DNA of 57,911 bases from NCBI GenBank assembly GCA_945862505.1, contig CAMAYJ010000007.1:1-57911 (forward strand). Direction: 5' to 3'. The notes below the pieces were generated by a model that made no database searches, was not told the DNA's origin, and saw only the letters and a program-made list of their open reading frames with translations. Source of the stretch: Bifidobacterium breve (lineage in GTDB: Bacteria > Actinomycetota > Acidimicrobiia > Acidimicrobiales > Acidimicrobilacustridaceae). This document shows, piece after piece, positions 1,172-28,199 of this stretch (its first letter is position 1; the number at the start of each line of letters is the position of its first letter). A program made the translations under genes and the position numbers.

Positions 1172-1312
1172 ATCTACGTCGCGGTTGGTGTCACGAATAC
1201 TGGTCCCGTCTATGTGACGTTGGTCCTCTCGTTGACCGGTCCTGTGCCCGCGTCAACAACTACGACAACCTCAGTCACGTCAGACCCGGTTGTCCCTGCG
1301 TTTAACGGCTGA
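1172..1312 (+). pseudogene. Remnant of a secreted repeat protein C-terminus (paralog of the gene at 3370)
   Basis: After an in-frame TGA at 1169-1171, 46 codons run to the stop at 1310-1312. They match the end of the protein at 3370-4104: YVAVGVTNTG corresponds to CVAVGRTETG, and VLSLTGPVPAST to VLSLTGPVPPST. The tail then runs through a Thr-rich linker to DPVVPAFNG at the stop. There is no start codon or signal sequence, so this is a decayed copy. The DNA similarity to the 3370 gene continues past the stop into the repeat that follows, which shows that gene end and repeat were duplicated together. Confidence 0.7.
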
Positions 1313-1354
1313 ACCACCGACAAAATCGCCAAGGCGAAGCGGTTCGATAGGGCA

Positions 1355-1563
1355 GCGTTTCACTTTTGGCCGAAACGCGTTTCACCATCTATTTGTGTAA
1401 ACCCGTTGACCTGCGGAAACGGAATTACGCGCCATCCCCACGAGGGCGGGGATGGCGCGGAACGTGGCGCGAAACTCGGCGCAACGGCCCGGAAGCCATG
1501 GGGGAAGGGTAGTTCGGGCCTGTTGGGCGGTCGAAAGTTCAGTTAGACCGGAAGTGTCGTGCT
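1355..1563 (+). repeat. Long direct repeat, copy A
   Basis: First of six copies of one repeat, all in the same orientation. It begins GCGTTTCACTTTTGGCC, followed by the palindrome GAAACGCGTTTC. The middle holds a perfect 12-bp hairpin, CGCGCCATCCCC (1428-1439) and its reverse complement (1448-1459), with an 8-nt loop. The end matches copies C and D through GGTCGAAAGTTCAG and, with D, GTTAGA and a further CGGAAGT block. It starts 43 bases after the stop of the remnant gene. The remaining bases up to 1694 show nothing recognisable. Confidence 0.9.
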
Positions 1564-1694
1564 CGTTGATGGGCGGTGGGTCGTGGCTGGTTCAACGGTG
1601 ACCTCAATCTTCGGACGCAGCGCACTGCCGCCGCGGTAGGTGCGAAGGCCTGGTCGCACGGCGCAGTATCTGGTTCCAGACCTAGGGTGAGTAC

Positions 1695-2144
1695 GTGGGC
1701 ACTGCGGCGACGGCCAAGAACAGGGTTGGCCGGCGGCTGATGATGAGGGTCGTGGTGTGGCTCACCTTTGTCTGGCTCGCAGTGCTGGCCGGGTTCCTCG
1801 TTTGGTCGTATCAAGCACACAGAAACACGGAACGTCAGGCGCCCGAACTGGTGGCTGCAGTCGACGGCGCCCTTCGTTCAGCGGCGAGCCAGAACCCAGG
1901 ACTGTTGAACGCGATGGTTTCGACAAACCTGATTCAGTCGTTCGATGAGTCCGGAGCAACAGATGTGTTCTCGGTCGTACCCGTTGTCGAAGGCGCTGAG
2001 CCGTTCCGTTTCTCGGTGACGCCCGACGGTGCAGCGGTCATTGGCTACCGAGGTACGAGTCTCGCCAACGAGGTATGCGTTCGTGGCGTCCTGTCGCCGT
2101 CGGGAGCAGTGACGACCCAGCGCTGGAGTTGCAGCGACTGGTGA
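1695..2144 (+). CDS. hypothetical single-pass membrane protein
   Basis: A 149-residue protein starting at GTG, with a Met-Met at residues 16-17 as an alternative start. Positive residues (KNRVGRR) precede one hydrophobic helix at about residues 18-38. The remaining 110 residues lack further membrane segments and would lie outside the cell. Two Cys near the end (CVRG and WSCSDW) could form a disulfide. I recognise no family. It stands alone between repeat copies A and B, in the position of a single-gene cassette. Confidence 0.65.
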   Translation: MGTAATAKNRVGRRLMMRVVVWLTFVWLAVLAGFLVWSYQAHRNTERQAPELVAAVDGALRSAASQNPGLLNAMVSTNLIQSFDESGATDVFSVVPVVEGAEPFRFSVTPDGAAVIGYRGTSLANEVCVRGVLSPSGAVTTQRWSCSDW

Positions 2145-2222
2145 GAGCTCAGTGACATGCGATTGATGGCCGAAGTCCTTGGCGGTCAACTCGGCGGTGC
2201 ATCGGGCTGCCTTAACCGGACC

Positions 2223-2387
2223 GCGTTTCACTTTTGGCCGAAACGCGTTTCACCATCTATTTCCGTAAACCCGTTGACCTGCGGGTTTTGAATTACGCGC
2301 CATCCCCACGAGGGCGGGGATGGCGCGGAACGTGGCGCGAAACTCGGCACAACGGCCCGGAAGCCATGGGGGAAGGGTAGTTCGGGG
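2223..2387 (+). repeat. Long direct repeat, copy B
   Basis: Nearly identical to copy A over about 160 bases, including the GCGTTTC/GAAACGC arms and the 12-bp hairpin around CGCGCCATCCCC. It stops being similar after TTCGGGG, so it lacks the GGTCGAAAGTTCAG end seen in A, C and D. It starts 78 bases after the stop of the upstream gene and is followed by the end of the methyltransferase on the other strand. Confidence 0.9.
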
Positions 2388-2432
2388 ACCACGGCGCACA
2401 CCGCAACGGTCATGAGCGAGTCAAAATCGTCG

Positions 2433-3068
2433 TCACTTGACCGAACGTCCGACGAGCACCACGGCGCGACCGGAGAGGAACCATCGAGTCTCAGGCGGCT
2501 CGACCGACACGTCACGTGCAGACAGATCCGCACATAGTTGCTGGACCCACTCGTCGTCGGGCACCGCGTCCGGGATGGCCCAGGTGTGCAAGAGCACGAC
2601 GATTTCTCCGCCGGGAGCGAGGACTCGAACGCATTCATCGAGACCAATTGCCCGGTCGTTCCAGAGTTGAATGTTGTTGACGCTGACGACGGCGTCTTGT
2701 GAGTGGTCTGGGACCGGGAGCGACTCTGCCGCAGCCTGCTCGATCCTCGTGATGTGCTCGACTTGGGCTTTACGACACCGAGTGCGAGTCCGCCCAACCA
2801 TCAATGCCGACGGGTCGAGACCGATCACCATGCCATTCGGTGTGCGACGAGCACCTGCCACCACGCCGACGCCCGGTCCACAACCGATCATCACAACATT
2901 CGCGTCAGTCTTTGGATTCACTAACTCGACCGCTGCGATTTCCATGTCGGCGTTGCCACGCGCCATCACCGTCGCCATGATTCGACCGCGCCAGCCATCC
3001 CACGCAACGAGTCGGTTCACGAAGTCCACGAGAAAACGGTACGCCATCAACCCGACGCAGTTCTTCAT
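2433..3068 (-). CDS. class I SAM-dependent methyltransferase
   Basis: A 211-residue protein with the Rossmann-fold methyltransferase signature: motif I VVMIGCGPGVGV at about residues 58-69, the acidic end of strand 2 (GLDPSALMV), and a motif II/III region with SVNNIQLW and LAPGGEIVVLLH. The N-terminal 50 residues are helical and resemble ubiquinone/menaquinone-type or small-molecule methyltransferases; the substrate cannot be deduced. It is the only complete gene on the minus strand in the first 9 kb and lies between repeat copies B and C, which have opposite polarity to it. Confidence 0.85.
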   Translation of the reverse strand: MKNCVGLMAYRFLVDFVNRLVAWDGWRGRIMATVMARGNADMEIAAVELVNPKTDANVVMIGCGPGVGVVAGARRTPNGMVIGLDPSALMVGRTRTRCRKAQVEHITRIEQAAAESLPVPDHSQDAVVSVNNIQLWNDRAIGLDECVRVLAPGGEIVVLLHTWAIPDAVPDDEWVQQLCADLSARDVSVEPPETRWFLSGRAVVLVGRSVK

Positions 3069-3114
3069 CTCTAGAGGTCAGAGAGGGATAGGAGTTCATG
3101 GCGTACTTGCGAGC

Positions 3115-3304
3115 GCGTTTCACTTTTGGCCAAAACGCGTTTCACTACCTATTTCTGTAAACCTGTTGACCGGCGGGTTTTGAATTACGCGCCATCCCCA
3201 CGAGGGCGGGGATGGCGCGGAACGTGGCGCGAAACTCGGCGCAACGGCCCGGAAGCCATGGGGGAAGGGTAGTTCGGGGGTTCTAGGCCGGTCGAAAGTT
3301 CAGT
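3115..3304 (+). repeat. Long direct repeat, copy C
   Basis: Matches copies A and B through the hairpin core and continues like D through GGGGGTTCTAGGCCGGTCGAAAG to TTCAGT. It begins 46 bases beyond the start codon side of the methyltransferase and ends 65 bases before the next gene, so it occupies most of that gene's upstream region. Confidence 0.9.
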
Positions 3305-3369
3305 GGCGAGTATGTTTTTCAAGTCGACCGGCGAAGGGTCTCTCGACTATCTAGTCAAAGGGTTCTCTT

Positions 3370-4104
3370 ATGGTGCGAAGGTCAGTTCTCGCTATGTTCG
3401 CAGTCATGGCGATTGTGTTGGGTTGTGTTGTTGTGTCGACACCGGCCGGTGCGGTAGTTGACGCTGCGGTTGTTGTGCCGAGCCCCAATGTCAATAGCGA
3501 TGATGTGCTGTATTCGGTGTCGTGTGTGAGTTTGTCTGAGTGTGTCGCGGTTGGTCGCTCAAATACCGGTTCGGCGTATGAGACGTTGGTGATGGTGTGG
3601 GATGGCGTCGAGTGGTTGATTGTGTCGAGCCCGAATGCCGGGACCATCGACGATGCGCTGAGATCTGTGTCGTGTGTGAGTGTGTCCGAGTGTGTTGCGG
3701 TTGGTTACACGTACACCGGGAATCGTGTCTATGAGACGTTGGTTGAAGTGTGGGATGGCGCCGAGTGGTCGGTTGTGTCGAGCCCGAATGCCGGCACCAT
3801 CATCGATCAGCTGTTTTCGGTGTCGTGTGTGAGTGCGTCGGACTGTGTCGCGGTTGGTTCCACGGAAACCGGTTCGGCAACTGAGACGTTGGTGATGGTG
3901 TGGGATGGCATTGTGTGGTCGATTGTGTCGAGCCCGAATGCCGGCACCACCTTTGACAGGCTGTCTTCGGTGTCGTGTGTGTCGGACTGTGTCGCGGTTG
4001 GTCGCACGGAGACCGGGAACAGGGGGTTTGAGACGTTGGTGCTTTCGTTGACCGGGCCAGTGCCTCCGTCAACGGACCAGGTCGCTTCTACATTCACCGG
4101 CTGA
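3370..4104 (+). CDS. secreted repeat protein with about 50-residue tandem repeats and a C-terminal FTG tail
   Basis: A 244-residue protein with a signal peptide (residues 1-28, ending about PAGA). It is built of four tandem units of roughly 50 residues with the pattern VSSPNAGT, DxLxSVSCVSxxxCVAVG, ETLVMVWDG and EW. Units of this kind, with a paired Cys in SVSC...C, occur in many actinobacterial exported proteins and look like beta-propeller or beta-sheet repeats (family knowledge; fold inferred). The final unit runs into LSLTGPVPPST and ends STFTG. Codon use is strongly repetitive (GTGTCGTGTGTGAGT), consistent with expansion by slippage or recombination. A decayed paralog lies at 1172. Confidence 0.8.
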   Translation: MVRRSVLAMFAVMAIVLGCVVVSTPAGAVVDAAVVVPSPNVNSDDVLYSVSCVSLSECVAVGRSNTGSAYETLVMVWDGVEWLIVSSPNAGTIDDALRSVSCVSVSECVAVGYTYTGNRVYETLVEVWDGAEWSVVSSPNAGTIIDQLFSVSCVSASDCVAVGSTETGSATETLVMVWDGIVWSIVSSPNAGTTFDRLSSVSCVSDCVAVGRTETGNRGFETLVLSLTGPVPPSTDQVASTFTG

Positions 4105-4146
4105 AACTGCGGCACTATCGCCAGGTCCAAACGGCTCGATAGGACC

Positions 4147-4362
4147 GCGTTTCACTTTTGGCCGAAACGCGGTTCACCACCTGTTTCTGTAAACCCGCCG
4201 ACCTGCGGGTATTGAATTACGCGCCATCCCCACGGGGCGGGGTGTGAGTGGAACCTGGCGCGAAACTGGGCGCAACGGCCCGCAAGTCACTGGGGGAAGG
4301 CTCGTTCGGGGGTTCTGGGCCGGTCGAAAGTTCAGTTAGATCAAACGGAAGTTTCGAGTGCT
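4147..4362 (+). repeat. Long direct repeat, copy D
   Basis: A diverged copy, shared in type with E: after CCCCACGGGGCGGGG it reads TGTGAGTGGAACCTGG in place of the second hairpin arm, so the 12-bp stem is broken. It keeps the GCGTTTC/GAAACGC arms, the CGGTCGAAAGTTCAGTTAGA end and the CGGAAGT block seen in A. The 40 bases before it (through CTCGATAGG) also match the bases before copy A. Confidence 0.9.
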
Positions 4363-4376
4363 GTTTGGGCGCGCTG

Positions 4377-4413
4377 AAGCCACCCGGTCCGAGGTTTCGG
4401 GTGGCTTTTGGTT
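4377..4413 (+). terminator. Rho-independent terminator-like hairpin
   Basis: AAGCCACCCG (4377-4386) pairs perfectly with CGGGTGGCTT (4398-4407) across an 11-nt loop and is followed on the plus strand by TTTTGGTTT. It also lies directly downstream of the stop of the minus-strand transposase-like remnant, so it may belong to that element and work in both directions. Confidence 0.65.
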
Positions 4414-4868
4414 TAGGTCTTGTCGGGTGGGCGCCAGTTCCCGAAGAACTCATCGAGGGAGGCACCGGTGCGGATCGAATGAGCGATCAACGCTTTGATT
4501 GCTGTGATTGCCTGGCAGGCGTGCATGTTCAGTTGCTGACGCTGAAGTCCGACAGTTCGTGCACGACGGTTGACGAGATGTGATTTGAGATGGTGATGCA
4601 TCGACTCGGAGTCTTCGCGAAGGCCGAACAGTCGATGGAACTCGTCGGTGCCTGGGGGGATTGGGCGAAGTGCTCGGGTGCGACGGCGACCGGTGGTGAT
4701 CTCGTCTTCGGTTGAGTTGTGTCGGATTCGCCCGATAGCTCCGCGCAATCGTTTCGGAACCTCAGGTCGGTCGAGATCGATCTGGAGTCGTTTGCCTTCG
4801 AAGACCACGAAGATCGCCGGTTTCGCGAACGAGTTGAACGACAGTTGGACCTTGTGAGAGTTCCGCCG
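4413..4868 (-). pseudogene. Transposase-like gene, 5'-truncated (fragment 1 of 3)
   Basis: About 150 codons on the minus strand, from NSHKVQLSFNSFAKP to the stop. Diagnostic blocks are GRIRHNSTEDEI, RRRTRALRPIPPGTDEF, RLFGLREDSESMHHHLK and RARTVGLQRQQLN. The Glu in an REDSE block followed by HHHLK and R-rich helices recalls the last catalytic segment of DDE transposases, but I cannot name the family. The upstream part of the frame is antisense to the antitoxin gene and is not real, so the gene lost its 5' end where the antitoxin promoter begins. The same blocks recur at 7391-7665 and 10541-10640. Confidence 0.6.
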
Positions 4869-4907
4869 ATAATATAAAGTGTAACGGAATACCGGAACAT
4901 AAGGGGA
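4860..4907 (+). promoter_or_regulatory. Putative promoter/operator of the antitoxin-toxin pair
   Basis: An AT-rich GATAATATAAAG block, unusual for this region, can serve as a -10 element. It is flanked by the inverted arms GTTCCG (4860-4865) and CGGAAC (4893-4898), with another CGGAA at 4885. Such arms around the promoter would suit autoregulation by the HTH antitoxin. A GGGGAAA site precedes the GTG at 4914. This is inference from spacing only. Confidence 0.35.
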
Positions 4908-4913
4908 AATCAG

Positions 4914-5495
4914 GTGAGTGTTGCAGGGACATTGCTCAGGCAGGCCCGTTTGGCCGAAGGTGTTTCCTGTCGCGGTCTGGCACGCCGAGCCGAAACCGTT
5001 CCCTCTCGCATCTCTGAGATTGAGCGGGCGGTTCATGATCCGGGAGTGAGCACGCTCGACCACTCGTTAGGCGCGCTTGGCTGGCAGCTCACTGCGGTTC
5101 CTACTCGTTACCCCACGGCAGCCGCGGTGGCGTTGGCAATTCGCGATTCGGCGGTGCTAGGTATCCCCGCAAGTGAGACCGATTCCGCGTTCAGGGCGTT
5201 GCTTTCGCTCGCTGATGGCCTTTCCGCTTCCGATGCATCGAGCCGTGTTGTTCTCTGCTTCGCGACTCCTCCGCTGACAGGAGACGAACGCATCGATGCA
5301 GCTATCGCTGCGATAGTCGAGCACTTCCTCGAAGTTCGCGGGTTGCTTCCGGAGTGGCTGAAAGCAACCGAGCGTGTGCTTGACGAACCCTGGATTCCAG
5401 ACCCGTACGCGAGTGCCACTATCGCCGACGAAACGCCGCCAGCATTTCGGCGTAGGGGAGTATTTCTCGCACGTAGCGAACTCGGGAGTGTCTGA
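4914..5495 (+). CDS. XRE-type HTH protein, antitoxin-like
   Basis: A 193-residue protein from GTG. Residues 5-60 form a Cro/C1-type helix-turn-helix (LLRQARLAEGVSCRGLARRAETVPSRISEIERAVHDPGVSTL). The C-terminal half ends RRGVFLARSELGSV, a tail commonly seen in HTH partners of DUF6036-type nucleotidyltransferases. Its TGA overlaps the ATG of the next gene in TGATG, a typical toxin-antitoxin arrangement. It should bind its own promoter and neutralise the partner; both are inferred from family context. Confidence 0.8.
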   Translation: MSVAGTLLRQARLAEGVSCRGLARRAETVPSRISEIERAVHDPGVSTLDHSLGALGWQLTAVPTRYPTAAAVALAIRDSAVLGIPASETDSAFRALLSLADGLSASDASSRVVLCFATPPLTGDERIDAAIAAIVEHFLEVRGLLPEWLKATERVLDEPWIPDPYASATIADETPPAFRRRGVFLARSELGSV

Positions 5496-5920
5496 TGGAA
5501 GTCACGTTCGATCGGGAAACCACGACGACCGACGTTGACGCGCTCTACGGAGCAAACCCTGATGTTGAGACTGCGGCGCGAACAATCGCCTATCGAAATG
5601 GGTGGCCGGAAAATTGGTTGAACGACAACGTCAAGCAGTTCGCGTCCCACTTCGACACAGCCGATGATTGGATCACTCTCGATGTCCGGGACGGTGTTGC
5701 TATCCGGATTGCAGGTGCTCGGCTGTTACTTGCAATGAAGTTGTTTGCTGCGCGGGGCCGACGCGATTCTCAAGACATTGATCGCTTACTTGACGCCTGC
5801 GCCATAAAAGATGTCGATGACGTCATTGCCGTCTTCGATCGCTATTACCCAGAAGAGGTACTTTCCGAAAGAGCGCTTCGGCAACTCAATGAACGGTTCG
5901 GCGGTTCGGCAACTCTTTGA
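5495..5920 (+). CDS. nucleotidyltransferase-type toxin-like protein (DUF6036-like), N-terminally short
   Basis: A 141-residue protein translationally coupled to the HTH gene. It contains TTTDVDALY (the DxD of the nucleotidyltransferase fold), a WLNDNVKQF block, LLAMKLFAARGRRDSQDIDRLL and DRYYPEEVL, all typical of the AbiEii/DUF6036-like family. Family members usually begin some 25-45 residues earlier with a GGxA(L/M) motif that forms part of the active site. Here that segment is absent, and a stop codon at 5474-5476 blocks any upstream extension in this frame. It may be an inactivated toxin, or one that acts without the usual first motif. Confidence 0.7.
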   Translation: MEVTFDRETTTTDVDALYGANPDVETAARTIAYRNGWPENWLNDNVKQFASHFDTADDWITLDVRDGVAIRIAGARLLLAMKLFAARGRRDSQDIDRLLDACAIKDVDDVIAVFDRYYPEEVLSERALRQLNERFGGSATL

Positions 5921-6010
5921 TGCTGCGACCACTTTCAGGGGGTCAGGAGAAACTGTGCCTACCGTCTGAATCTGCAGTTGGCTCCGAGGCCTGCGCGACT
6001 CAATGGAGCC

Positions 6011-6182
6011 ACGTTTTACTTCTGACCGAAACGCGATCTACTACCTATTTCTGTAAACGCGTAGACCTGCGGGTTTGAAATTACGCGCACGTCCCACGAG
6101 GGCGGGGTGTGAGTGGAACGTGGGGCGAAACTCGGCGCAACGGCCCGCAAGTCACTGGGAGAAGGCTCGTTCGGGGGTTTCG
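6011..6182 (+). repeat. Long direct repeat, copy E
   Basis: The most diverged long copy (ACGTTTTACTTCTGACC at its start). It is of the D type, with GGCGGGGTGTGAGTGGAACGTGG and CCCGCAAGTCACTGGGAGAAGG, and its similarity ends at TTCGGGGGTTTC. It lies 90 bases after the toxin-like gene and 68 bases before the amidohydrolase. The rest of the 330-base gap between the two genes shows no coding signal. Confidence 0.85.
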
Positions 6183-6250
6183 GCATATCTGCATGAACCT
6201 TTGCGGGTGACGAACACACCCTCCTTCCGGGTGACGGGTAGGTTCCTCGC

Positions 6251-7357
6251 ATGAGCACAGTGCTTTCTTCAGTTCATGGCCGGATTCTTGATCTTGACAG
6301 CCACTTGCAGGTTCCGATTTCTCGATGGGGCGAGGTATTCGGCGACGCGACTGCCCGCTTCGGAACGCGTTTCGCCGGTATCCCGTTGTTTGACGCCACT
6401 GATGAACCCGATCTGACCGCCGACTCCGTGTGGAATACCAAAGGCGCTGCAGCTCCAGGAGCGTCCACCCCAGAAGGCCGTTTGGCTGCGATGGACGTGA
6501 TGGGGATCGACCGGCAACTCATCTTTCCGCAGGTGATTCTTGCAATGCCCGCGTGGTCTGACCATCCCAGTGCTGCGGCACTGCTACGCGAGTACAACGA
6601 CACGGTTTTGAGTTGGACCAAGACGGGTGAAGGGCGCCTTCGTCCAACTGCGTTGCTGAATCTCACCACAATCGATGGCGCGATCAAAGAAGTCGAGCGA
6701 GTGGCTGCGGGCGGTGCACGAGCGGTGTTCATTCAGGATGGGATCGCTCCGGGCGGCCGCTCCCCGGCAGCGGCTGAACTTGACCCTCTGTGGGCACTGC
6801 TCGCCGAAGCGGAACTTCCCGTCACTCTTCATATCGGTGGTCAGGAAGGCTTCTTCGCGAGCAATGCATGGTCTGATGCCGACCTGTTGAGGCCGGGTAC
6901 CTTCTCGACAGGCGAGCCGATCGGCCCGCACGCGCTCGCCACCATGCACCTCGCGGCTCAGAATTATCTGGCGACCATGATCTACGGAGGCGTGTTCGAC
7001 CGTCATCCAAGTTTGCGAGTTGGGGTCATCGAACTCGGTGCGATGTGGGTCGGGCCGTTCGTCGACCTTCTCGAGGATCGTCTCCAGTTGTCGCGTCGTC
7101 TGCGCGAGAGTCTGCAGAGAAGCCCACGAGAAGTGTTCATCGACCAGATCCGTGTGACACCGTTCTTCTGGGAACGTACGGCGCGACAGATTGAGCGCTA
7201 CGGCATGCCGGAGATCTACGCGTTCTCGACGGACTTCCCGCATCCCGAAGGCGGCACTGACCCGATCGGCAAAATGGCTGCTGACATCACGCCGCTCGGT
7301 AACGAAGCGCTCGAAGCGTTCTTCGTGCGCAACGCCGAGCTTCTCCTTCCCGCCTGA
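6251..7357 (+). CDS. amidohydrolase family 2 (ACMSD-like) metal-dependent hydrolase
   Basis: A 368-residue TIM-barrel protein of the length usual for amidohydrolase 2 enzymes. Recognisable elements are the N-terminal DLDSHLQV (the metal motif is DxHxH in most relatives; Gln replaces the second His here), LDPLWALLAEAELPVTLHIGG with the strand-5 His, IYGGVFDRHPSLRVGVIELGA, and the terminal FSTDFPHPEGG carrying the catalytic Asp. This group includes decarboxylases and hydrolases of aromatic or heterocyclic acids; the substrate is unknown. It ends the row of genes separated by repeats. Confidence 0.85.
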   Translation: MSTVLSSVHGRILDLDSHLQVPISRWGEVFGDATARFGTRFAGIPLFDATDEPDLTADSVWNTKGAAAPGASTPEGRLAAMDVMGIDRQLIFPQVILAMPAWSDHPSAAALLREYNDTVLSWTKTGEGRLRPTALLNLTTIDGAIKEVERVAAGGARAVFIQDGIAPGGRSPAAAELDPLWALLAEAELPVTLHIGGQEGFFASNAWSDADLLRPGTFSTGEPIGPHALATMHLAAQNYLATMIYGGVFDRHPSLRVGVIELGAMWVGPFVDLLEDRLQLSRRLRESLQRSPREVFIDQIRVTPFFWERTARQIERYGMPEIYAFSTDFPHPEGGTDPIGKMAADITPLGNEALEAFFVRNAELLLPA

Positions 7358-7390
7358 CCGACAGCCTGGCGATGACGCCCAACGCTTCGA

Positions 7391-7665
7391 GCGCCACCGT
7401 TTGGCAGCATCATCTTGAGATGGTGGTGCATCGATTCGGAATCTTCGCGCAGCCCGAACAGCCGGTTGAATGAGTCATCGGTTTCAGGGATGACGCGCAG
7501 CGCTCGGGCGCGCGGCGTCTTGTCGGGGATCTGCCAGGTGCCGTAGAACCGGTAGGTGTCGGTTCGGTTCGATTCGAACTGACGAGAAATATCCCTGAGC
7601 CGGGAACCGACGAGCCGAACCCGACGACCTATCACTGTCGGGTCAATTTCGGACCCGAGCCCCAA
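7391..7665 (-). pseudogene. Transposase-like gene fragment 2
   Basis: The minus strand encodes the same blocks as the fragment at 4413: RARALRVIPETDDSFNRLFG, then LREDSESMHHHLK, then GGARSVGRHRQA. The part before RARAL (RTDTYRFYGTWQIPDK) differs from fragment 1, so the copies diverged or recombined. There is no start codon that would give a full gene, and the frame runs on as antisense noise. It fills the 330-base gap between the amidohydrolase and the first YcnI-like gene. Confidence 0.55.
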
Positions 7666-7685
7666 CTTGCTCTCAGGAGAACCAA

Positions 7686-8444
7686 ATGCACCGTTCCCGC
7701 TCCTCTCGCCTCGTCCGAGTCGTCTTATTCGTTGCCGCTTCGGCTGTGACGCTTGTGACGCTTTCGACGGCAAGCAGCGCCCACGCCGGCTTCAAGGCAT
7801 ACTCCGCCTTCGGCTTCGCTCCGAATCTGGCCGGAGGATCGAACGCTGCCTCGGGCGATCAAGCGACACCGCCTTACGCGGCCGGAGCGACCGTGACGAT
7901 GTACATGCGCTCGGCGGTTGAGATCCCGGATGGTGAGAGCTGGGACCCAGCGCTCTACAGCAACGTGGATATGAAGATCATCGTGCCATCAGGTTGGACC
8001 AATCCGACTTGTGGCAGCGCCAATCTTCAGGTGAACGACGGCAGCACCAACAGCACCAACCAGCCGGGGGCGGCTGTCGCTGGGTGGCAGTGCGAGACCT
8101 ACGTCAGTGCCGGCCACACGGTGATCCACTTCTGGGGGCCTCCGGTTGCATCGGGAGGTCTCGCGTCCGACGCTGCCCAGTACTTTGTATTCTCCGTGAC
8201 TACCCCGTCACCAGCGGTCGAGACGACCTACGGGGTAGGTGGCACCGAGGGATTCACCGCAGATCAGCAGTACGCGAATGGTGAGATCTCGCACTGGTAC
8301 CCAAGCGTAGATTACGTCGGCACCTATCCCGCCGGTGCTGCTCCGACGACTCCGGCACGCGGACTCCTGCGAACCGTTGCCGCCGCCGAGCCGACCACGA
8401 CGACCACCCCTTCTGGCCCGGTCACCCCGGCATTCACAGGCTGA
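7686..8444 (+). CDS. secreted YcnI/DUF1775-like protein with C-terminal PAFTG tail
   Basis: A 252-residue protein with a signal peptide ending SSA before HAGFKAY, so the mature chain would start with His. YcnI-type copper proteins use an N-terminal His together with a downstream Trp. The second half of the domain is also recognisable: DMKIIVPSGWTNPTC, QYFVFSVTTPSP, and GEISHW in the place of the family GEVVRW. Extra loops make the domain longer than usual. The C-terminus is a Thr-rich linker (EPTTTTTPSG) followed by PVTPAFTG at the stop, a tail shared with three other loci in this window. The next gene begins one base after the stop. Confidence 0.7.
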   Translation: MHRSRSSRLVRVVLFVAASAVTLVTLSTASSAHAGFKAYSAFGFAPNLAGGSNAASGDQATPPYAAGATVTMYMRSAVEIPDGESWDPALYSNVDMKIIVPSGWTNPTCGSANLQVNDGSTNSTNQPGAAVAGWQCETYVSAGHTVIHFWGPPVASGGLASDAAQYFVFSVTTPSPAVETTYGVGGTEGFTADQQYANGEISHWYPSVDYVGTYPAGAAPTTPARGLLRTVAAAEPTTTTTPSGPVTPAFTG

Positions 8445-8445
8445 C

Positions 8446-9207
8446 ATGCGCATCCGATCCACTCTGGCGCGGTTTGCCGCGTGCACTGTGCTGGGGTGGA
8501 TCGCGCTCGGCGGTGTCTCCGCCGTCGCTTCTGCTCACGCGGAGTTCGAATCGACAAGCGTGACCGCAACGAGCACCACCCAGGTGGTGCTCGACGTTCC
8601 ACACGAGCGCGCACCGAACGTTTTCAACACTTCAGTGAGGATCAAGATCCCTAACGGATGGAGTGCACCGACATGCACTTCGCCCGCCGGTTGGACCTGC
8701 TCGAGTTCGTCCGGCGAGGTCGCGTTCTTCAAGAATGACCCCCGGTCCATCATCAATTCCTCAGAGGCGTTCCGATTCGCGTTGAGCGCGCCGGCATCGA
8801 CCGGCACCACGACCTTCCCTGTGGCGCAGATCTACGACACGGGTGAGAACGTCCTTTGGTCAAGTTCTGCGCAATTGCAGGTCACTCCCGCACAAACACC
8901 AACCACATCCGCCCCGCAACCTTCGCCATCGCCGACCACTCCGAATAGTCCGCCGACCACGACTGCGCAGTCGGAATCTTCGAACGCCGGGTCGGGGGCC
9001 GATGGTGGTTCGTCAGCATCGACCGCTTTGAGTCCCGACTCCTCGAACACGGTCACGCTCCAAGCTGACCAGACCGACGATTCGGCGGGCGCTCACTCCA
9101 CCTCAACCTCGGACGGTGCCCCGATCGCAGCGATCGTGGTGGCGGTAATCATCGTGATCATCGTCGGTGGAGTCGCTTTCGTTCTCGCGCGTCGTCGCGG
9201 CCGCTAG
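8446..9207 (+). CDS. membrane-anchored YcnI/DUF1775-like protein
   Basis: A 253-residue protein from the ATG right after the previous stop. The signal peptide ends ASA before HAEFESTSV, again leaving an N-terminal His. The domain shows the family pattern VVLDVPHERAPN, VRIKIPNGW, FRFALSAP, TTTFPVAQIYDTGENVLW. A 90-residue Ser/Thr/Pro-rich linker then leads to one transmembrane helix (IAAIVVAVIIVIIVGGVAFVL) and a basic tail, the usual layout of anchored actinobacterial members. Its stop shares the tetranucleotide CTAG (9204-9207) with the convergent anti-sigma gene. A role in copper capture or delivery at the cell surface follows from the family, not from direct evidence here. Confidence 0.75.
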   Translation: MRIRSTLARFAACTVLGWIALGGVSAVASAHAEFESTSVTATSTTQVVLDVPHERAPNVFNTSVRIKIPNGWSAPTCTSPAGWTCSSSSGEVAFFKNDPRSIINSSEAFRFALSAPASTGTTTFPVAQIYDTGENVLWSSSAQLQVTPAQTPTTSAPQPSPSPTTPNSPPTTTAQSESSNAGSGADGGSSASTALSPDSSNTVTLQADQTDDSAGAHSTSTSDGAPIAAIVVAVIIVIIVGGVAFVLARRRGR

Positions 9208-9809: not shown

Positions 9810-9870
9810 CGGATTCCCATCGACGTCGACTCTTGCATCGGACTCTCGCTCACTGGACCATGATAGGGAG

Positions 9871-10640: not shown

Positions 10641-10663
10641 GCGCAGATCTCCGTTTTGCCGCG

Positions 10664-17784: not shown

Positions 17785-18543
17785 ATGGAAGAAATCATGA
17801 CAACCGGTTCCAGCCTGATGAATACGGTGACGTTGACCGGCAACGAATATTTGCTGGTCTACAACGTCTTTTCGCTTGTGGTTGCGTCAATGTTCGCCGC
17901 CTTCGTTTATTTCCTTATGAACGCTTCACAGGTTGCGAAGCAGTACCGCAACGCAGTGGTCGTCTCCGCTGTCGTCGTCGGAATCGCCGGTTACCACTAC
18001 TTCCGCATCTTCTCCGGATGGTCCGATGGCCAGTTCAACGAGGGCTACCGCTACGCCGACTGGCTTCTGACCGTACCGTTGCTGCTCATCGAACTCTTGA
18101 TCGTTCTTGGTCTGAGTTCAGAGAAGCGCCGTCCGCTCACGATCCGTTTGGTAACTGCTGCCGTCTTGATGATCGGCCTCGGTTACCCGGGCGAGATTTC
18201 GACCAGCGATAGCACGAAGTGGATCTTCTGGGCGTTGGCGATGATCCCATTCATCTACATCCTCGCCATCCTTTACAAGGAGATCACTGCTGCGACAAAG
18301 CGCGAGTCTGCCGGAGTGGCGCAGGCCCTTCGTCTTGCTCTTGGCCTCTTGCTGTTGGCTTGGTTGGTCTACCCGATTGCCTACCTCTTCCCGATCATCT
18401 TCGGTGAGGACAGTTCGATGGCCGAAACGGTACGTCAGGTTGGATACTCGGTTGCTGATCTTCTGGCCAAGCCCGTCTACGGCCTCGCCATTCTTGCGGT
18501 CGCAAAACTGCGCACCCGTGAGGAAGCTCCTTCCGCAAACTGA
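17785..18543 (+). CDS. light-driven proton-pump rhodopsin (proteorhodopsin/xanthorhodopsin-like)
   Basis: A 252-residue seven-helix protein. Helix C reads GYRYADWLLTVPLLLIELLI: Asp92, Thr96 and Glu103 match the DTE residues of outward proton pumps (acceptor, Thr, donor), and Leu100 at the tuning site predicts green absorption. His71 (GYHYF) matches the helix-B His that pairs with the acceptor. Lys229 (ADLLAKPVYG) is the retinal Schiff-base residue. An internal ATG at 17797, preceded by GGAAG, is an alternative start. No retinal-forming dioxygenase or carotenoid genes lie in the window, so retinal must come from elsewhere. By position from memory, Trp149 occupies the site that is Gly in carotenoid-antenna rhodopsins. 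Confidence 0.93.
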   Translation: MEEIMTTGSSLMNTVTLTGNEYLLVYNVFSLVVASMFAAFVYFLMNASQVAKQYRNAVVVSAVVVGIAGYHYFRIFSGWSDGQFNEGYRYADWLLTVPLLLIELLIVLGLSSEKRRPLTIRLVTAAVLMIGLGYPGEISTSDSTKWIFWALAMIPFIYILAILYKEITAATKRESAGVAQALRLALGLLLLAWLVYPIAYLFPIIFGEDSSMAETVRQVGYSVADLLAKPVYGLAILAVAKLRTREEAPSAN

Positions 18544-20378: not shown

Positions 20379-20433
20379 GATTCCCCCTCTTGGCCCGACT
20401 TGTTGCTTCCTCAATCTCATAAACTTAGGTCTT

Positions 20434-20473
20434 CTAGCGGGCTAGCGGGCTAGCGGGCTAGCGGGCTAGCGGG
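20434..20473. repeat. Five tandem copies of an 8-bp unit (CTAGCGGG)
   Basis: Five exact head-to-tail copies of CTAGCGGG lie between the divergent starts at 20378 and 20541. Each junction creates the palindrome GCTAGC, so the array offers four evenly spaced sites on one face of the helix about every 8 bases. CTAG is generally rare in bacteria. The copy number could vary by slippage and change the spacing of either promoter. Confidence 0.9.
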
Positions 20474-20540
20474 CCGATAGTCGTGGAGAGGGCCTAGGGC
20501 CATTTACGTGGTTGACTGACGTGAGCGACATAGGGGAATC

Positions 20541-21581: not shown

Positions 21582-21604
21582 GACAGCAGAGAGCTACCGT
21601 TTAT

Positions 21605-22714: not shown

Positions 22715-22896
22715 TGCTTCCCCCACTTCACGTTAGGAAAATCCCCACCATCAGCATAGAGAAGGTGAACATCTTGCGGCATTGAAGACGCTCGCTGGCT
22801 CCTGTTGCTGCACCGTTCAGGCCGTGGACCTGCGTCTGTGCCGGTGAATTCGGGACTAACGTTGAGAATTCTCTAACGGTGTGGAGAGGTTCGTTC

Positions 22897-24954
22897 ATGT
22901 CAGATTTTGTCGAAAAGCCAGTTCAGGAAGGCGCGGTGACCCGTCGCCAGGTCTTGAAAGGCGCAGGGGCAATTGGTGTCGCTGCCGCCGCTATGGCTGC
23001 TGGGGTATCGCCGTCTGGAGCAACCCCGACTGCGCCTACTTCTGTTTCGCCGGCGTTTGTTCCGCGTGGCCCGCTAACGACGCAACCAAATTTCCTCGTG
23101 ATCATCGTCGATGAGCAGCGATTCCCAGTTTCGTATGAATCGGCGTCGCTGGCCTCTTGGCGTGCGTCGAACCTTCCGGCTCAGAACCAACTCATGGCGA
23201 AGGGAATGCAATTCCGTAACCACCACATCATGGCGACAGCGTGTGCTCCTAGCCGAACGTCGTTTCTTACGGGACAGTACCCATCGCTGCATGGCGTGAC
23301 GCAAACGTCGGGCATTGCAAAGTCGGCTCTTGAACAAGATCTCTATTGGCTAGACCCGACAACCGTCCCCACGATGGGAAGTTGGTTCCGGGCGGGCGGC
23401 TACGACACCTATTGGAAAGGTAAGTGGCACGTTTCCGACGCCGATCTCTATAAGCCGGGAACACATCAGCCGTATCCCTCTTTCAACGCCGACGGATCTC
23501 GGAATCTGACTGCGGAGAACGTCTACCTCGAAGCGGACATGTTGGATCAATTCGGATTCACCGGATGGATCGGTCCCGAACCACATGGTTCCAACCCGAT
23601 GGATTCGGGTTCATCTGCTCCAGGCGGCGGCGGTCGCGACGACGGCTTTGCGGCGCAGAGTGTTGAATTGATGCAAGGTCTGCTGAATTCATCGAATCCG
23701 TGGTTGGCAGTTGCGTCATTTGTTGATCCGCACGACATTGTTCTTTGGGGTCAACTCGCGCTTCTCGCTGGTCAAGCGAATCCGTCGACCGCTCTGAACC
23801 TGCAAGGCCAACTTGATGGATCAAATGTGCCCACAGATCTATTTGATTCGGTTCCATGGGGGCAAACGTTTACTGATGACCTTTCGAAAAAGCCCGACGC
23901 ACAAGCGAGCTATCGCGAGACCTATCCGAAATCACTTCAGCCGACACTGACGAATTCTGATTATCAGCGTTTCTATTACCAGTTGCAAAAGAATATTGAC
24001 GCGCACATCAAGTCCGTGGTCGATGCACTCACCGCTAACAACACGACCTATCGCGAAACCATCATCATTTATCTCTCTGATCATGGAGAGCTTCTCGGAT
24101 CGCACGGTGGCCTTCATCAGAAGTGGCATGTTTCCTACGACGAGGTGCTGCGAGTTCCGTTTGTCATACATAACCCAGACATGTGCCCTTCAGGGGCATC
24201 GACAGACGTACTCACGAGTCATGCCGATCTGCTGCCGACGATGCTCGGACTCGCTGGTCTTGATCAGAGCACACTGATCTCAATACTTTCGACGACTCAT
24301 ACCCAGGCGCAACCACTGCCAGGACGCGATCTGTCGGGCTTTCTTTTGGGTCTTGAGGCCGAATCATCAATTGCAGATGATCCTCAGTACTTCATGACAG
24401 ATGACGAGCCGATGCGCGGAGCGCAGCAAGTCGGTTGGAACGGAACGATGTACGAAGCCGTGGCGCAGCCGTGCCATCTCGAGACGGTCATAGCGAATCT
24501 GCCGACGGGGTCATCGGGGCAGATGGAGCGGTGGAAATACACGCGCTATTTCGACAACCCCAATTTCTGGAGCTCGCCGAATAGTCGTGACGCGCAAACC
24601 ATCGTCGATGGAGTTACGCAACGGCCTGGGCCGAAGAGTGCGAACACAACGTTGAAGACGAATGCCGTTCCTGATCAGCTCGAGATATACAACACATCAG
24701 AAGATCCGTTAGAGCTTCGAAACATTGGGTCCGATCCAATTCTCATGGCGACGCCTCGGATTTCTGGGATCGTGCAACAGCTTCAGGCCTTACTTGCTCA
24801 GCAGCGGAGCGCAAAGCGCTTGCAGCCGGCAGGTTCTTCATCAGTTTCATCACCTTCGGGGATGTTCCGATTCGGCTCAGAGGCTGATTGGTCTCAGATC
24901 TCACAGAGAGGGTCGACTGACTCCGAAGAGGCAGTTCCGAAGTTCACGAGCTAA
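22897..24954 (+). CDS. Tat-exported sulfatase
   Basis: A 685-residue protein from the ATG behind GAGAGG (a GTG 18 bases upstream is less likely). Residues 15-22 TRRQVLKG and the following hydrophobic stretch form a Tat signal peptide. The sulfatase fold starts NFLVIIVDEQR. The active-site CAPSR (Cys116-Arg120), followed by TSFLTGQYPS, is the motif in which Cys is converted to formylglycine. YLSDHGELLGSHGG carries further metal ligands. It would act outside the membrane on sulfate esters, for example algal material (inference). A GAGAATTCTC palindrome (22864-22873) lies in its leader. Confidence 0.9.
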   Translation: MSDFVEKPVQEGAVTRRQVLKGAGAIGVAAAAMAAGVSPSGATPTAPTSVSPAFVPRGPLTTQPNFLVIIVDEQRFPVSYESASLASWRASNLPAQNQLMAKGMQFRNHHIMATACAPSRTSFLTGQYPSLHGVTQTSGIAKSALEQDLYWLDPTTVPTMGSWFRAGGYDTYWKGKWHVSDADLYKPGTHQPYPSFNADGSRNLTAENVYLEADMLDQFGFTGWIGPEPHGSNPMDSGSSAPGGGGRDDGFAAQSVELMQGLLNSSNPWLAVASFVDPHDIVLWGQLALLAGQANPSTALNLQGQLDGSNVPTDLFDSVPWGQTFTDDLSKKPDAQASYRETYPKSLQPTLTNSDYQRFYYQLQKNIDAHIKSVVDALTANNTTYRETIIIYLSDHGELLGSHGGLHQKWHVSYDEVLRVPFVIHNPDMCPSGASTDVLTSHADLLPTMLGLAGLDQSTLISILSTTHTQAQPLPGRDLSGFLLGLEAESSIADDPQYFMTDDEPMRGAQQVGWNGTMYEAVAQPCHLETVIANLPTGSSGQMERWKYTRYFDNPNFWSSPNSRDAQTIVDGVTQRPGPKSANTTLKTNAVPDQLEIYNTSEDPLELRNIGSDPILMATPRISGIVQQLQALLAQQRSAKRLQPAGSSSVSSPSGMFRFGSEADWSQISQRGSTDSEEAVPKFTS

Positions 24955-25037
24955 CGAACGTCTGCGCCGGTCGATCGAACGAGTACGTGTCTTCCCCAGC
25001 CCACGGATGCTGTGATTTACCAACAACTGCTATTGAT

Positions 25038-26003
25038 CTAGGCCGCATCAAAAACTGATCGCAAAGCTCCGACTGGTTTGTCTTCGGGGTAGACGGTTTT
25101 CAGTTCAGCGCTGAGAGCAACATCGTCGACTCGAGCGAGGTCGAATCGGATCTCGGAGCCACGTTGCACGAGATCATCGTTGAATCGGTCGGCAACGTCT
25201 TGCATCGTGAGAGTGTCTGACTTTTTTCGATCACGTTCAGCCGCTGTTTCGTAAACATCGGCTTTCCACAGCACGCTGAGTCGGTAAGTGTCGAGCGGGG
25301 CACGAAAGACGACTTCGCCGAGATCGGTGATGGCCCAATCGCCAGTCCCGTCGTTGACTGGTGCGAGCGTGGCAGTGGGAGTGAGCAGCGGTGATTGACC
25401 AGAGAAAGGTCCAATAGGGCCTACCTGATGGAACATTCCGTGGTTATCGCCGATCAACGCCGTATTCGCCATGTTGTCGGAGTGAACCTCGGGTGGATTG
25501 GCGGCACCGTTTGGCCAGTAGTACAACGCTCCGCCCTCGACATCGTTTCGCCACCAAATCGCGGTTGCTTGAAGAATCTCGAACTCGTTGAACAAACCTG
25601 ACCACAACATCGCCCGCAATAACCACATGGGTGTATTCGTTCGGTCACGACCGTGGAAGCGCGGGTTGTCAGTGTGTGCAGGACCGCCACCGTCGATTGC
25701 CACCATGAGATTCACATACACACTTATCGGTTCAACAATTTCGGCGCCGTAATAGTGTTTCGCCGCTTCGATGTAGTCCGGATGCTGAAGAAACAGATCA
25801 GAACCTTCGGCGGCAAAGTCATCGTGGACCCAGTCGTTCTGGAACCACATGGGCCGAGTCTTTTTCGTTGGGTCTGCGCCGGGGCTATACCAACCGCCAA
25901 GTGGTGTGTACGGAGCCTGTGATTCAAGAAGGCGAACGACTCCGTCAAGATCGGTAATCACATCGTGCATCAGCACCGGTGGCTTTGAATAGCGGATTGT
26001 CAT
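25038..26003 (-). CDS. hypothetical protein with an HxD...H pattern
   Basis: A 321-residue soluble protein. AHTDNPRFHG (from about residue 109) together with MFHQVGPIGPFSG about 80 residues later resembles the HxD...H iron ligands of 2-oxoglutarate-type oxygenases, and the region between could form a jelly-roll. The match is by pattern only, and I would not assign the family firmly. It lies 114 bases downstream of a bicupin on the same strand, so the two may be co-expressed. The end is rich in Asp/Glu/Lys and lacks any export signal. Confidence 0.8.
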   Translation of the reverse strand: MTIRYSKPPVLMHDVITDLDGVVRLLESQAPYTPLGGWYSPGADPTKKTRPMWFQNDWVHDDFAAEGSDLFLQHPDYIEAAKHYYGAEIVEPISVYVNLMVAIDGGGPAHTDNPRFHGRDRTNTPMWLLRAMLWSGLFNEFEILQATAIWWRNDVEGGALYYWPNGAANPPEVHSDNMANTALIGDNHGMFHQVGPIGPFSGQSPLLTPTATLAPVNDGTGDWAITDLGEVVFRAPLDTYRLSVLWKADVYETAAERDRKKSDTLTMQDVADRFNDDLVQRGSEIRFDLARVDDVALSAELKTVYPEDKPVGALRSVFDAA

Positions 26004-26117
26004 GTGCCCCCCCGGGTGAAACCTTTCGTTGTGAAACTAATGCCCAATGCTTTTGAGAGTGGTTTAGAACTCGATGACGTCGGTCGGCCCCGAATGGTTT
26101 ATTCGTGCCTAGCCACC

Positions 26118-27119
26118 TTACGGGGCCCAGTAGCCGCGGCGGTCGGTAAACCATTCGCCGAGATCAATGGGCGGGTCAGGCAATGGCGTGACGCCCCGCT
26201 CAGCAATCAGATTGTCGAAGAGTTCGGGCTGGTCTCCCCAACTGCGGAAGTCGCCATCGGTGAGTTCAAGAAACAACGTGCCTTCGTCGCCAGCAATAAT
26301 CGGACCAAAGGCTGCGCCGAAGGGAAGTTCTATATGGGTGCCGGCGGGGCACCAGCGATCGCCAAACCACGCGCCGCCTTCAATCACGTACACAAGGTGC
26401 AAGCCGAAGTGTCCGTGACGACGCACGATCATTCCTGGCGAGTATTCGATGTACGCGCTCATGAAATCGGGCTGCAGGATCGGCCACTTTTCACGCACGA
26501 CAGAAAGTGAGCCATCAGCATTTTGCTGATGCTTCACGTCGGTCCATTCATAGTCACTCACGTGTGTCATCACCGACTGCAGTCCTTCGACCTTGGGTGA
26601 AGGACGTTCACCACCCCAATCGCCGCGTGGATCAACAAACCAATCGCCAATCTCGAGCGGGGGATCGGGGAGCGGTGTGATTCCTCGTTTCGCGATTTCA
26701 TTGGCGTAAAGCTCGGACTGATCGCCCCAGCCGCCGAACTCGCCGAAACTCAGTTCCCAGCACGTGAGCCCGTCAGGCCCAGCGATGATCGGACCGAATG
26801 CTGAGCCAAGCGGAACATGGATATGTGATCCGGGTTCGCAGGGTGTGGTTCCGATCCAACCACTGCCGCCGAGCACGAACACGACGTGGTTACTGCGATG
26901 TCCATGGCGCCGTACGACCATTCCCGGTTCATAGTGAACATGCGCCGAAAGAAAGCCGGGTCGGATGATCGGCCACTTCTCACGAACGACAGAAACGGAA
27001 CCGTCGGCATTCTGCTGGCGCTGCACCTCGGTCCAGTCGATGTCATTGATATGCCAGAAGACTGCTCCGCTGTGCGGAAGACCTGGCGATAATCCGCTGG
27101 ATGTTGGCGTGGTATCCAT
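26118..27119 (-). CDS. bicupin formed by tandem duplication
   Basis: A 333-residue protein of two closely similar halves. Each half begins with WTEVQRQQNADGSVSVVREK or WTDVKHQQNADGSLSVVREK. Each continues with a metal-cupin motif (PGMVVRRHGHRSNHVVFVLGG and PGMIVRRHGHFGLHLVYVIE), then SAFGPIIAG or AAFGPIIAG, and ends with RGITPLPDPPL or RGVTPLPDPPI. The HxH...H pattern can bind Fe, Mn or Zn, so it may be a dioxygenase or isomerase-type cupin. The strong similarity shows a recent duplication within the gene. A relative of one unit is cut by the right end of the window at 57549. Confidence 0.85.
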   Translation of the reverse strand: MDTTPTSSGLSPGLPHSGAVFWHINDIDWTEVQRQQNADGSVSVVREKWPIIRPGFLSAHVHYEPGMVVRRHGHRSNHVVFVLGGSGWIGTTPCEPGSHIHVPLGSAFGPIIAGPDGLTCWELSFGEFGGWGDQSELYANEIAKRGITPLPDPPLEIGDWFVDPRGDWGGERPSPKVEGLQSVMTHVSDYEWTDVKHQQNADGSLSVVREKWPILQPDFMSAYIEYSPGMIVRRHGHFGLHLVYVIEGGAWFGDRWCPAGTHIELPFGAAFGPIIAGDEGTLFLELTDGDFRSWGDQPELFDNLIAERGVTPLPDPPIDLGEWFTDRRGYWAP

Positions 27120-27188
27120 ATTTCTCCGAAAGTTTGTCAGCGAAGGATACCCGGGCCCAATATTGGAAGGGCTGATGTACCGTCTTGT

Positions 27189-28199
27189 ATGCGTCTTGAT
27201 GAACTTTCGCGTTCTTCTCGTCTATTCCTTGGCGTTCTAGCTGCTGGCCTCGGTCTCGGCGCTACGGCCACGCAGGTTGCTCAAGTCTCGGCTGAACCGG
27301 CGACCGGCGATAGTTCCGATTCCCACAGTCCTGCTTCACTGCCAGCACCTGGAACCTATGAGTCGTGCTCAGGGCTGTTTGGACTCTACAAACTGAACTC
27401 TGACCTGGTGTCGTTCGACATCGTGCAAGGAGCGAACCCAGTTGCAACTCTTCCCACAATGGGCACTGACATCGTTCCCATCGTGACGCTGAGTGATGGA
27501 ACCACCTCGGTCTCGTGCGAAGCGGTTTCGGGTTGGGCCGATGAGGCGGGTTTTTCTGCCTATCTGTTGCACGATTGGATAGTGGGAACGTCGATGACGT
27601 ACCCAGGAGTTGGCTACTTTCTGGTCCCTGCAATCGATGTCATTGAGTTCAACGTCAACGGTGGTTCGTTCCTTCCAACGACACGATCAGTCGAGTACCT
27701 CACAAATCTGGGCTTGGATGAAACGTTGTCGGTGAATCCGGGCGAACTAGTTGCACTCGCGTCGAGCTATCACCCGTATTACGGAACCATGCCGACGAAT
27801 TCGAGTGGGTTATCCGATCCCTTCTTCACACGCGTGTCTGCGGCGATACTTAATTCCCTTATCGGGAGCCAAGCGCAGGTCGATTACCTCAACCAACACC
27901 TTTCCCTCCTCTTGAATAGCCAACCCACAACATGCAGTGATCAAGATCCCACGCTGGTTGCGCTTGTTGTGACGATGCAGTCGCTCTCGACAGGATTCAA
28001 TCCAATGTCTGTTGCCACGGAGTGCTCCAACCTGAGTGAGGGGACCCTGGCGATAGGAAGGATTCAACTTTTCAATGCTGAAGTTTCTGACACAAAAATC
28101 ACTTTGGTGGTTTCAGGTCCGGCTCCGCCTACGACCACGACGTCAATGACATCAACGACGGTCGTATCCGATCCCGTCATTCCCGCATTCACCGGTTGA
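27189..28199 (+). CDS. secreted protein with C-terminal PAFTG tail
   Basis: A 336-residue protein with a signal peptide (residues 1-35, VSAEP). The body carries several paired Cys (ESCSGLFG, TSVSCEAVSGW, QPTTCSDQD, ATECSNLS), consistent with an oxidised extracellular protein; no family is recognised. The end reads VVSGPAPPTTTTSMTSTTVV followed by SDPVIPAFTG at the stop. This is the same kind of tail as in the remnant at 1172 (SVTSDPVVPAFNG) and the YcnI-like protein at 7686. The following gene starts 3 bases later. Confidence 0.75.
   Translation: MRLDELSRSSRLFLGVLAAGLGLGATATQVAQVSAEPATGDSSDSHSPASLPAPGTYESCSGLFGLYKLNSDLVSFDIVQGANPVATLPTMGTDIVPIVTLSDGTTSVSCEAVSGWADEAGFSAYLLHDWIVGTSMTYPGVGYFLVPAIDVIEFNVNGGSFLPTTRSVEYLTNLGLDETLSVNPGELVALASSYHPYYGTMPTNSSGLSDPFFTRVSAAILNSLIGSQAQVDYLNQHLSLLLNSQPTTCSDQDPTLVALVVTMQSLSTGFNPMSVATECSNLSEGTLAIGRIQLFNAEVSDTKITLVVSGPAPPTTTTSMTSTTVVSDPVIPAFTG

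Follow-up and report, generated by a model that had tools for sequence, protein, structure and literature searches.

The type IX signal of diderm Bacteroidota is a folded domain of about 70–100 residues that is served by a PorU-like sortase. The PGF-CTERM signal of the archaeosortase system consists of a Thr-rich stalk followed by a P-x-F-like core, PGF-CTERM and PEP-CTERM signals both include a membrane helix and basic residues, and GlyGly-CTERM and MYXO-CTERM also have a helix, with intramembrane proteases as partners. Here we analysed a window of 57,911 nucleotides, contig C7 (CAMAYJ010000007.1) of a 2.32 Mb genome in 115 contigs (G000), and found that one short tail, in most cases Pro-x-Phe-Thr-Gly, closes exported proteins of many unrelated kinds in freshwater Microthrix-like bacteria, several of them encoded in this window. 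The tail, for which we suggest the working name FTG-CTERM ([VAIL]-x-P-x-F-T-G-COOH), is very probably a real, lineage-spanning C-terminal sorting signal that lacks a membrane segment and acts after export. GlyGly-CTERM with rhombosortase and MYXO-CTERM with myxosortase have been described as tags for C-terminal sorting that many proteins of a single genome share, MYXO-CTERM being tripartite with more sequence after its motif (PMC3237569, PMC11980579), and class E sortases as enzymes that read LAXTG and have a conserved tyrosine in the β3/β4 loop (PMC5148588).

Genes in the window were called heuristically, and signal peptides were scored with a crude hand-written hydropathy predictor. The earlier note on this DNA had listed four tails, all on the forward strand, and each is found directly before its stop codon: SDPVVPAFNG (1312), DQVASTFTG (4104), SGPVTPAFTG (8444) and SDPVIPAFTG (28199). 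The first belongs to a 46-codon open frame (1172–1312), a remnant of a gene for a repeat-type secreted protein whose tail is intact (...TTTTTSVTSDPVVPAFNG). The second, in the variant form QVASTFTG, ends a 244-residue secreted protein with SVSCVSxSxCVAVG repeats and no confident Pfam family (3370–4104); with 72% identity over 25 residues between the remnant and the C-terminal part of this protein (E 0.13 in a search of all loci collected), the two are probably relatives. The third (...TTTTTPSGPVTPAFTG) closes a 252-residue secreted protein (7686–8444) that has no Pfam match of its own and whose YcnI/DUF1775-like body is recognized by BLASTP to the adjoining DUF1775 protein (E 2e-5, 26% over 115 residues). 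The fourth (...TTTTSMTSTTVVSDPVIPAFTG) ends a 336-residue secreted protein of an unnamed family without Pfam match (27189–28199), and its last stretch (28173–28199), PVIPAFTG plus stop, has the typical form judged from the columns of 145 strict tails. This protein has four relatives of 29–38% identity, every one ending in P-x-F-T-G, all of them located via that pattern or adjoining a match to it. The three complete genes have signal peptides (scores 3.37, 2.89 and 2.67 in order of position), and no C-terminal membrane helix accompanies any of the noted tails, in agreement with the earlier note. A fifth tail, absent from that note, is AVPKFTS (in full EEAVPKFTS), which ends a Tat-type sulfatase-like protein at 24954 (22897–24954, forward strand); its TAT_signal_seq match is above cut-off, and the best sulfatase model (E 1.6e-27) stays under its equivalog cut-off.

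To count tails we used a strict pattern, P-x-F-T-G followed by a stop in the DNA, with the reversed pattern as the control. The window's own genome has 9 forward versus 0 reversed strict matches; a loose pattern (P-x-F-x-[GS]-stop) gave 17 versus 13, which proves nothing by itself, and frame-by-frame reading of the loose matches separated real carriers from chance ones. One strict match, at the end of contig C8 (55481–55498; L006, L065), reads VAPAFTG after only 8 open codons and is probably a broken or frameshifted tail gene. The G000 carriers outside the window include a choice-of-anchor I protein, YVTN-like and glycine-rich proteins (both labels from reading the sequence by eye), a ubiquitin-domain and a partial ubiquitin-domain protein, an unclassified protein of which the end alone was read (L017), and two relatives of the 27189–28199 protein. 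For wider comparison, families are denoted f1 for the window's own, f2, f3, f6, f12, f20, f24 and f52 for others in its class, f78, f100 and f103 for families outside the class, and f7 for a further family that figures in the anchor comparison; genomes were given their lineage labels by hand, from the genome handles. In a scan of 61 genomes, f1 gave 350 strict matches versus 3 reversed, and all 37 f1 genomes were positive, with 1 to 29 matches each (the highest in G018); the sole match of G032 (L040), in a luciferase-like frame, looks like chance. The enrichment over chance that the earlier note asked to test for is present.

The tail extends beyond the lineage for which that note proposed its role, to further families of the class and to two that lie outside it. 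Among 296 genomes of the class, counts above two beyond f1 were found in f52 (G086 and G101, 5 each; G116, 15; G132, 8), f20 (G257, 6) and f24 (G317, 3, frames unread). G041 (f6) has 13 matches and G037 (f2) has 3, the one read being spurious. The frames read in f6, f52 and f20 were mostly secreted proteins bearing the same end. Most of the isolated matches read elsewhere in the class were spurious short frames, and G047 (f12, with no scored signal peptide), G059 (f24) and G157 (f3) each have one plausible tail. In 336 genomes of the phylum outside the class, no genome had more than 3 strict matches. Fifteen of these outside places were examined: six look real, all in f78 or f100 (three in G573, one each in G402, G523 and G412), three in G470 (f103) are undecided, four look spurious and two have no matching frame. 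Since it rests on the strict DNA pattern, the status 'tail-poor' is fuzzy; the tail-poor G038 has an ATFTG end, and G141, with a strict count of 0, nevertheless has an LKFTG end. The genome_contigs collection (84,980 species) was also scanned for one spelling of the tail with one stop codon, VAPAFTG-stop, which gave 28 stretches. Twenty lie in metagenome-assembled genomes (MAGs) titled Microthrix, Acidimicrobiia and the like, unclassified Actinomycetota/Actinobacteria, or, in four cases, Bifidobacterium breve; the other eight showed no secreted-looking carrier except a 40-residue frame in L294, taken for chance. The four MAG records titled Bifidobacterium breve (L291, L292, L306 and L307) have the VAPAFTG end, and three of the four carriers resemble proteins of Microthrix-like genomes; their titles are probably wrong, and the records probably mislabelled lake MAGs.

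We gathered 152 distinct ends, 145 of them strict. The P, F, T and G columns were selected by the search pattern, so that conservation there proves nothing. Position −7, which was unselected, is V, I, L or A in 131 of the 145 strict tails (background 0.30), with V in 78; position −8 is P in 61, and the half-selected position −4 is A in 66. Away from the end, P-x-F-T-G occurs 5 times in the same 145 proteins. Variant ends lacking a strict letter include PKFAG, PAFAG, PAYTG, VIRFTG, VLKFTG, AATFTG and ASTFTG. The Thr-rich linkers described by the earlier note precede three of the four tails it listed but are not a general trait, the mean Ser+Thr content over 40 residues being 25% in f1 and 5–20% in f6, f52, f78 and f100. 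When eight 35-residue ends were searched against NCBIfam and Pfam at E up to 10, with HMMER filters that drop most weak matches, no sorting-signal model matched; the sole matches were choice_anch_Q (a body domain, residues 1–20 of one end), TIGR04212 (0.14) and PRIMA1 (5.9).

The bodies that carry these 152 tails fall into about 60 clusters at E 1e-4, a number inflated by fragments, and include choice_anch_I, choice_anch_Q, SurE, neocarzinostatin-like, S8 peptidase, DUF4397, PhoD, sulfatase, collagen-like and ubiquitin families. The bodies are therefore unrelated, as had been proposed from the window proteins. In one group of carriers a ubiquitin domain (PF00240, best E 8e-31) forms the N-terminus, and behind it come a second domain and the P-x-F-T-G tail: two on contig C34 of G000 (L130, 306–974 and 1–282), and others in L025, L029, L055 and L060. 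Some are arranged in tandem, and in G000 and G014 they lie directly 3′ of a methyltransferase-like gene; papers that mention ubiquitin together with Acidimicrobiia looked unrelated.

Export signals are enriched on the carriers. Counting carriers with closed 5′ ends and excluding frames that run off a contig, the crude predictor scored signal peptides on 49 of 68 carriers versus 99 of 472 other genes in f1 (P 1.6e-16) and on 17 of 23 versus 54 of 332 in f6, f52 and f20 together (P 9e-9). The association with signal-peptide proteins, which the earlier note had proposed as a check, thus holds in both sets. The 19 f1 carriers without a score comprise seven ubiquitin-domain proteins, several whose N-terminus is near-threshold, Tat-like or mis-started, and one luciferase-like frame. 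Tat-like carriers are the window sulfatase, a PhoD protein (L100) and a collagen-like protein (L058, with a twin-Arg segment recognized by eye). Because Sec and Tat carriers bear the tail alike, its role would lie after translocation. One protein of G018 (L031, 394–1362) combines a weak PqqD-like N-terminal domain (E 0.02), an internal SRRQVLQRLALGAAA, a Thr-rich stretch and a PKFTG end, and is apparently a membrane or Tat protein whose tail lies outside.

On some body families the tail stands where a conventional anchor is found in relatives. Among 14 choice_anch_I loci above cut-off, five, all in f7, end in LPxTG plus a helix, the G000 protein ends in ATPAFTG, and that of G275 ends in GVAYTG after a fairly hydrophobic stretch. 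Thirty choice_anch_Q loci yielded 17 frames with an end-of-domain motif, of which 8 have an FTG end (seven in f52, one in G038), one has EPTFIG and two, both in f7, have LPxTG plus a helix. In the window, the tail protein at 7686–8444 is followed by its homologue at 8446–9207 (forward strand; PF07987, E 8e-9), which instead has a conventional C-terminal membrane helix and an RRRGR end. Of the 16 secreted proteins listed from ten G042 stretches, none has the tail and 5 have an LPxTG motif with a helix. The f52 genomes G086 and G101 encode an IAFTG motif before a helix and RR, and in an f78 protein (L377) LPETG is closely followed by PAQPVVTDPDFTG with no helix, an end that looks like a relic of an anchor swap. 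Since the two choice-of-anchor families have LPxTG plus a membrane helix in f7, surface attachment is favoured among the roles that the earlier note had offered for a recognition tag (export, surface attachment or glycosylation). Judging from these swaps, the role of the tail is probably anchoring.

The tail resembles LPXTG/LAXTG signals in several respects: a short motif with Thr-Gly at its end lies close to the C-terminus, behind a flexible linker, on exported proteins with unrelated bodies (export signals as counted above and TAT_signal_seq on the sulfatase, the ubiquitin-domain carriers excepted). Some body families have either such a signal or the tail in the same position, a class E-scoring sortase is present, and the IAFTG plus helix proteins provide an intermediate form. 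In contrast to such signals, the pentapeptide is P-x-F-T-G in 145 of 152 tails (a pattern-selected figure), so that the last Thr-Gly alone matches. Apart from the IAFTG plus helix form, there is no hydrophobic segment, the tail being the last five residues with the stop next by definition of the pattern, and the protein ends in Gly with no K/R cluster after the motif. The statement that this is not an LPxTG signal is borne out by the missing membrane segment and basic end. Like the type IX signal, the tail would act on proteins without a C-terminal helix after Sec export and on many unrelated cargo bodies, but it spans about 8 residues and belongs to Actinomycetota, in a lineage that we take to be monoderm. 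The Thr-rich stalk before a P-x-F core is shared with PGF-CTERM, and the presence on many proteins per genome with GlyGly-CTERM and MYXO-CTERM. PF09721, the enzyme family of the PEP-CTERM/archaeosortase-exosortase systems, passed its cut-off in a single genome of 42 (G143, which is tail-poor), with sub-threshold matches (E up to 0.1) in 12 more, and we rejected an exosortase as the partner.

A sortase (PF04203) is present in all of 42 genomes, a panel made up of a tail-rich and a tail-poor set of 21 each. The co-occurring sortase that the earlier note suggested looking for therefore exists, in a form matching a class E model, but its presence in all 21 tail-poor genomes means that co-occurrence fails to prove a link. 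The G000 sortase on contig C34 has its His, Cys and Arg in place and a GHRTTY motif, and passes the class_E_sortase cut-off narrowly (160.7 versus 160 bits); four of five scanned sortases pass (G000, G116, G041 and G042), and that of G257 is below (153.7). G019, G023, G027, G116, G132 and G101, with 8, 2, 8, 15, 8 and 5 strict tails respectively, have a single sortase match each, the one in G019 with an in-frame stop. LPXTG_anchor matches were weak (best E 0.22 in G116, 0.09 in G132, 0.05 in G101 and 0.035 in G086). G116 and G132 showed no LPxTG-like helix anchor in 8 loci examined of their 13 matches, and among the loci examined in these four genomes only the IAFTG plus helix plus RR protein of G086 and G101 resembles a sortase signal. 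Helix signals in other tail-rich genomes include LANTG, LGNTG and LGRTG (G257) and LARTG (G041). A sortase tree left tail-positive rows ungrouped, but most f1 rows had been dropped by a 'TC' filter and the tree was not used. The TLMAC variant of the class E sortase was considered as a tail marker, being present in 19 of 25 genomes of f1 and, outside f1, in 1 of 55 (G047, itself with a plausible tail); this link was dropped, as f52 has TLTTC and the tail-rich G041 and G257 have TLTAC, a form often seen in tail-poor genomes. In the LPxTG motifs of f1 (for example L209, L211, L220 and L261), x is Tyr or Phe in 20 of 37 ends versus 1 of 29 elsewhere, which is only a hint, since the ends are not independent in phylogeny and those of f6 and f20, one each, have Arg.

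We favour the explanation, with a probability of roughly 0.6, that the tail anchors proteins in the envelope and that a class E sortase is its likeliest reader. Carriers would be exported by Sec or Tat, as their signal peptides support, and the tail would be read on the outer face of the membrane after export. The protein would then be attached to the cell envelope via a flexible Thr- or Pro/Ala-rich stalk, the tail serving in place of the LPxTG motif and membrane helix used in f7. The housekeeping class E sortase could cleave between Thr and Gly, freeing one terminal glycine and linking the threonine to the wall. This enzyme is the leading named candidate, though less likely than not to be the reader; a single class E sortase reading both the tail and the helix forms is compatible with the sequences. 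The broader proposition, that in Acidimicrobiia and at least two further Actinomycetota families a class E sortase reads a helix-less signal at a free C-terminus and releases one glycine, is a shade more doubtful.

Several observations weigh against this explanation. No enzyme co-varies with the tail, sortases being found in tail-rich and tail-poor genomes alike, and the distribution of TLMAC indicates that catalytic-site variants track phylogeny rather than tails. LAxTG-type helix signals are also present in tail-poor genomes (LAATG in G143, LARTG in G038, LALTG in G204), so such signals do not mark the tail system, which slightly lowers the odds of a sortase reader. In f1, tails are found alongside proteins with an LPxTG motif and a helix (37 distinct LPxTG ends), and the tail motif has Pro rather than Leu at its first position and Phe before Thr-Gly. 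To our knowledge, known sortase substrates need a helix to stay at the membrane. The anchor comparison is itself incomplete: 4 of the 14 choice_anch_I loci have no visible anchor and 3 more are unread, their longest frame lying on the wrong strand, and 6 of the 17 readable choice_anch_Q frames have neither anchor (four of them look like false motif matches), with 13 more loci lacking the motif. Seven ubiquitin-domain carriers, finally, have no recognizable signal peptide.

Alternatively, the sorting signal may be read by non-sortase machinery, either a novel transpeptidase or a receptor that binds the C-terminal FTG without a covalent bond, in function like the C-terminal domain of type IX cargo. 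We regard this as a serious possibility with a chance of about one in three. It agrees with the failure of sortases to separate tail-rich from tail-poor genomes, with substrates that lack a membrane segment, with the coexistence of tail and LPxTG proteins in the same genomes, and with the exact C-terminal position, which suggests that the free carboxylate is recognized. Neighbouring genes and exosortases offered no candidate, but the search did not include proteome-wide profiling and could easily have missed a partner. No conserved gene was found beside the tail genes, and recurrent neighbours look metabolic and not tied to them; the one recurrent membrane protein was dismissed as a partner, being fatty-acid-hydroxylase-like (by reading of the sequence, with no family search) and unlinked to tails.

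A tag for something other than anchoring, such as retention or quality control, proteolytic processing by an enzyme of the PDZ type, or a mark for glycosylation in the Thr-rich end, appears unlikely. Thr-rich stalks do precede many f1 tails, and a PDZ domain could in principle bind a free C-terminal tetrapeptide, but the anchor swaps in two choice-of-anchor families speak for attachment, and the tail is kept in f6, f52, f78 and f100 although the linker there is not Thr-rich. Common descent of one C-terminal domain is highly improbable and is refuted by the unrelated bodies. Some carriers are indeed tandem paralogues (for example L047, L050 and L051), and the proteins of 1172–1312 and 3370–4104 are probably related, but about 60 body clusters share only about 8 terminal residues. 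The least probable account, with a negligible chance of being correct, is that the tails reflect chance or composition bias. Isolated matches in tail-poor genomes are mostly short spurious frames, and the loose pattern in G000 does no better than its control; the strict counts in f1, the conserved columns beyond the pattern and the signal-peptide enrichment nevertheless refute it.

Two further genes in the window were noted. Directly downstream of the tail protein of 27189–28199 is a GNAT-like gene (28203–28871, forward strand; PF00583, E 3.6e-5), and such a gene also lies between tail proteins of the same family on contig C6 of G000 (L064, 10118–10783); it probably belongs to this protein family and not to the tail system. 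A bacteriorhodopsin-like gene is located at 17785–18543 (PF01036, E 6e-42).

A literature search found no earlier account of PAFTG or of a helix-less sorting tail, and none of a sortase in Microthrix or of surface-protein sorting in Acidimicrobiia; on sorting signals of choice-of-anchor proteins it gave an unrelated plant paper. Subscription papers and preprints fell outside this search, and an earlier description is possible. What a lineage displays at its surface is defined by its C-terminal sorting tags, and the FTG tail lets the probable surface proteins of Microthrix-like and other Acidimicrobiia be listed, its carriers including hydrolases and many proteins without a known function. If a class E sortase reads the tail, sortases would take up soluble substrates, and it would no longer hold that every sortase substrate has to be kept in the membrane by a tail of its own. 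If it does not, a new attachment machinery would still be there to be found.

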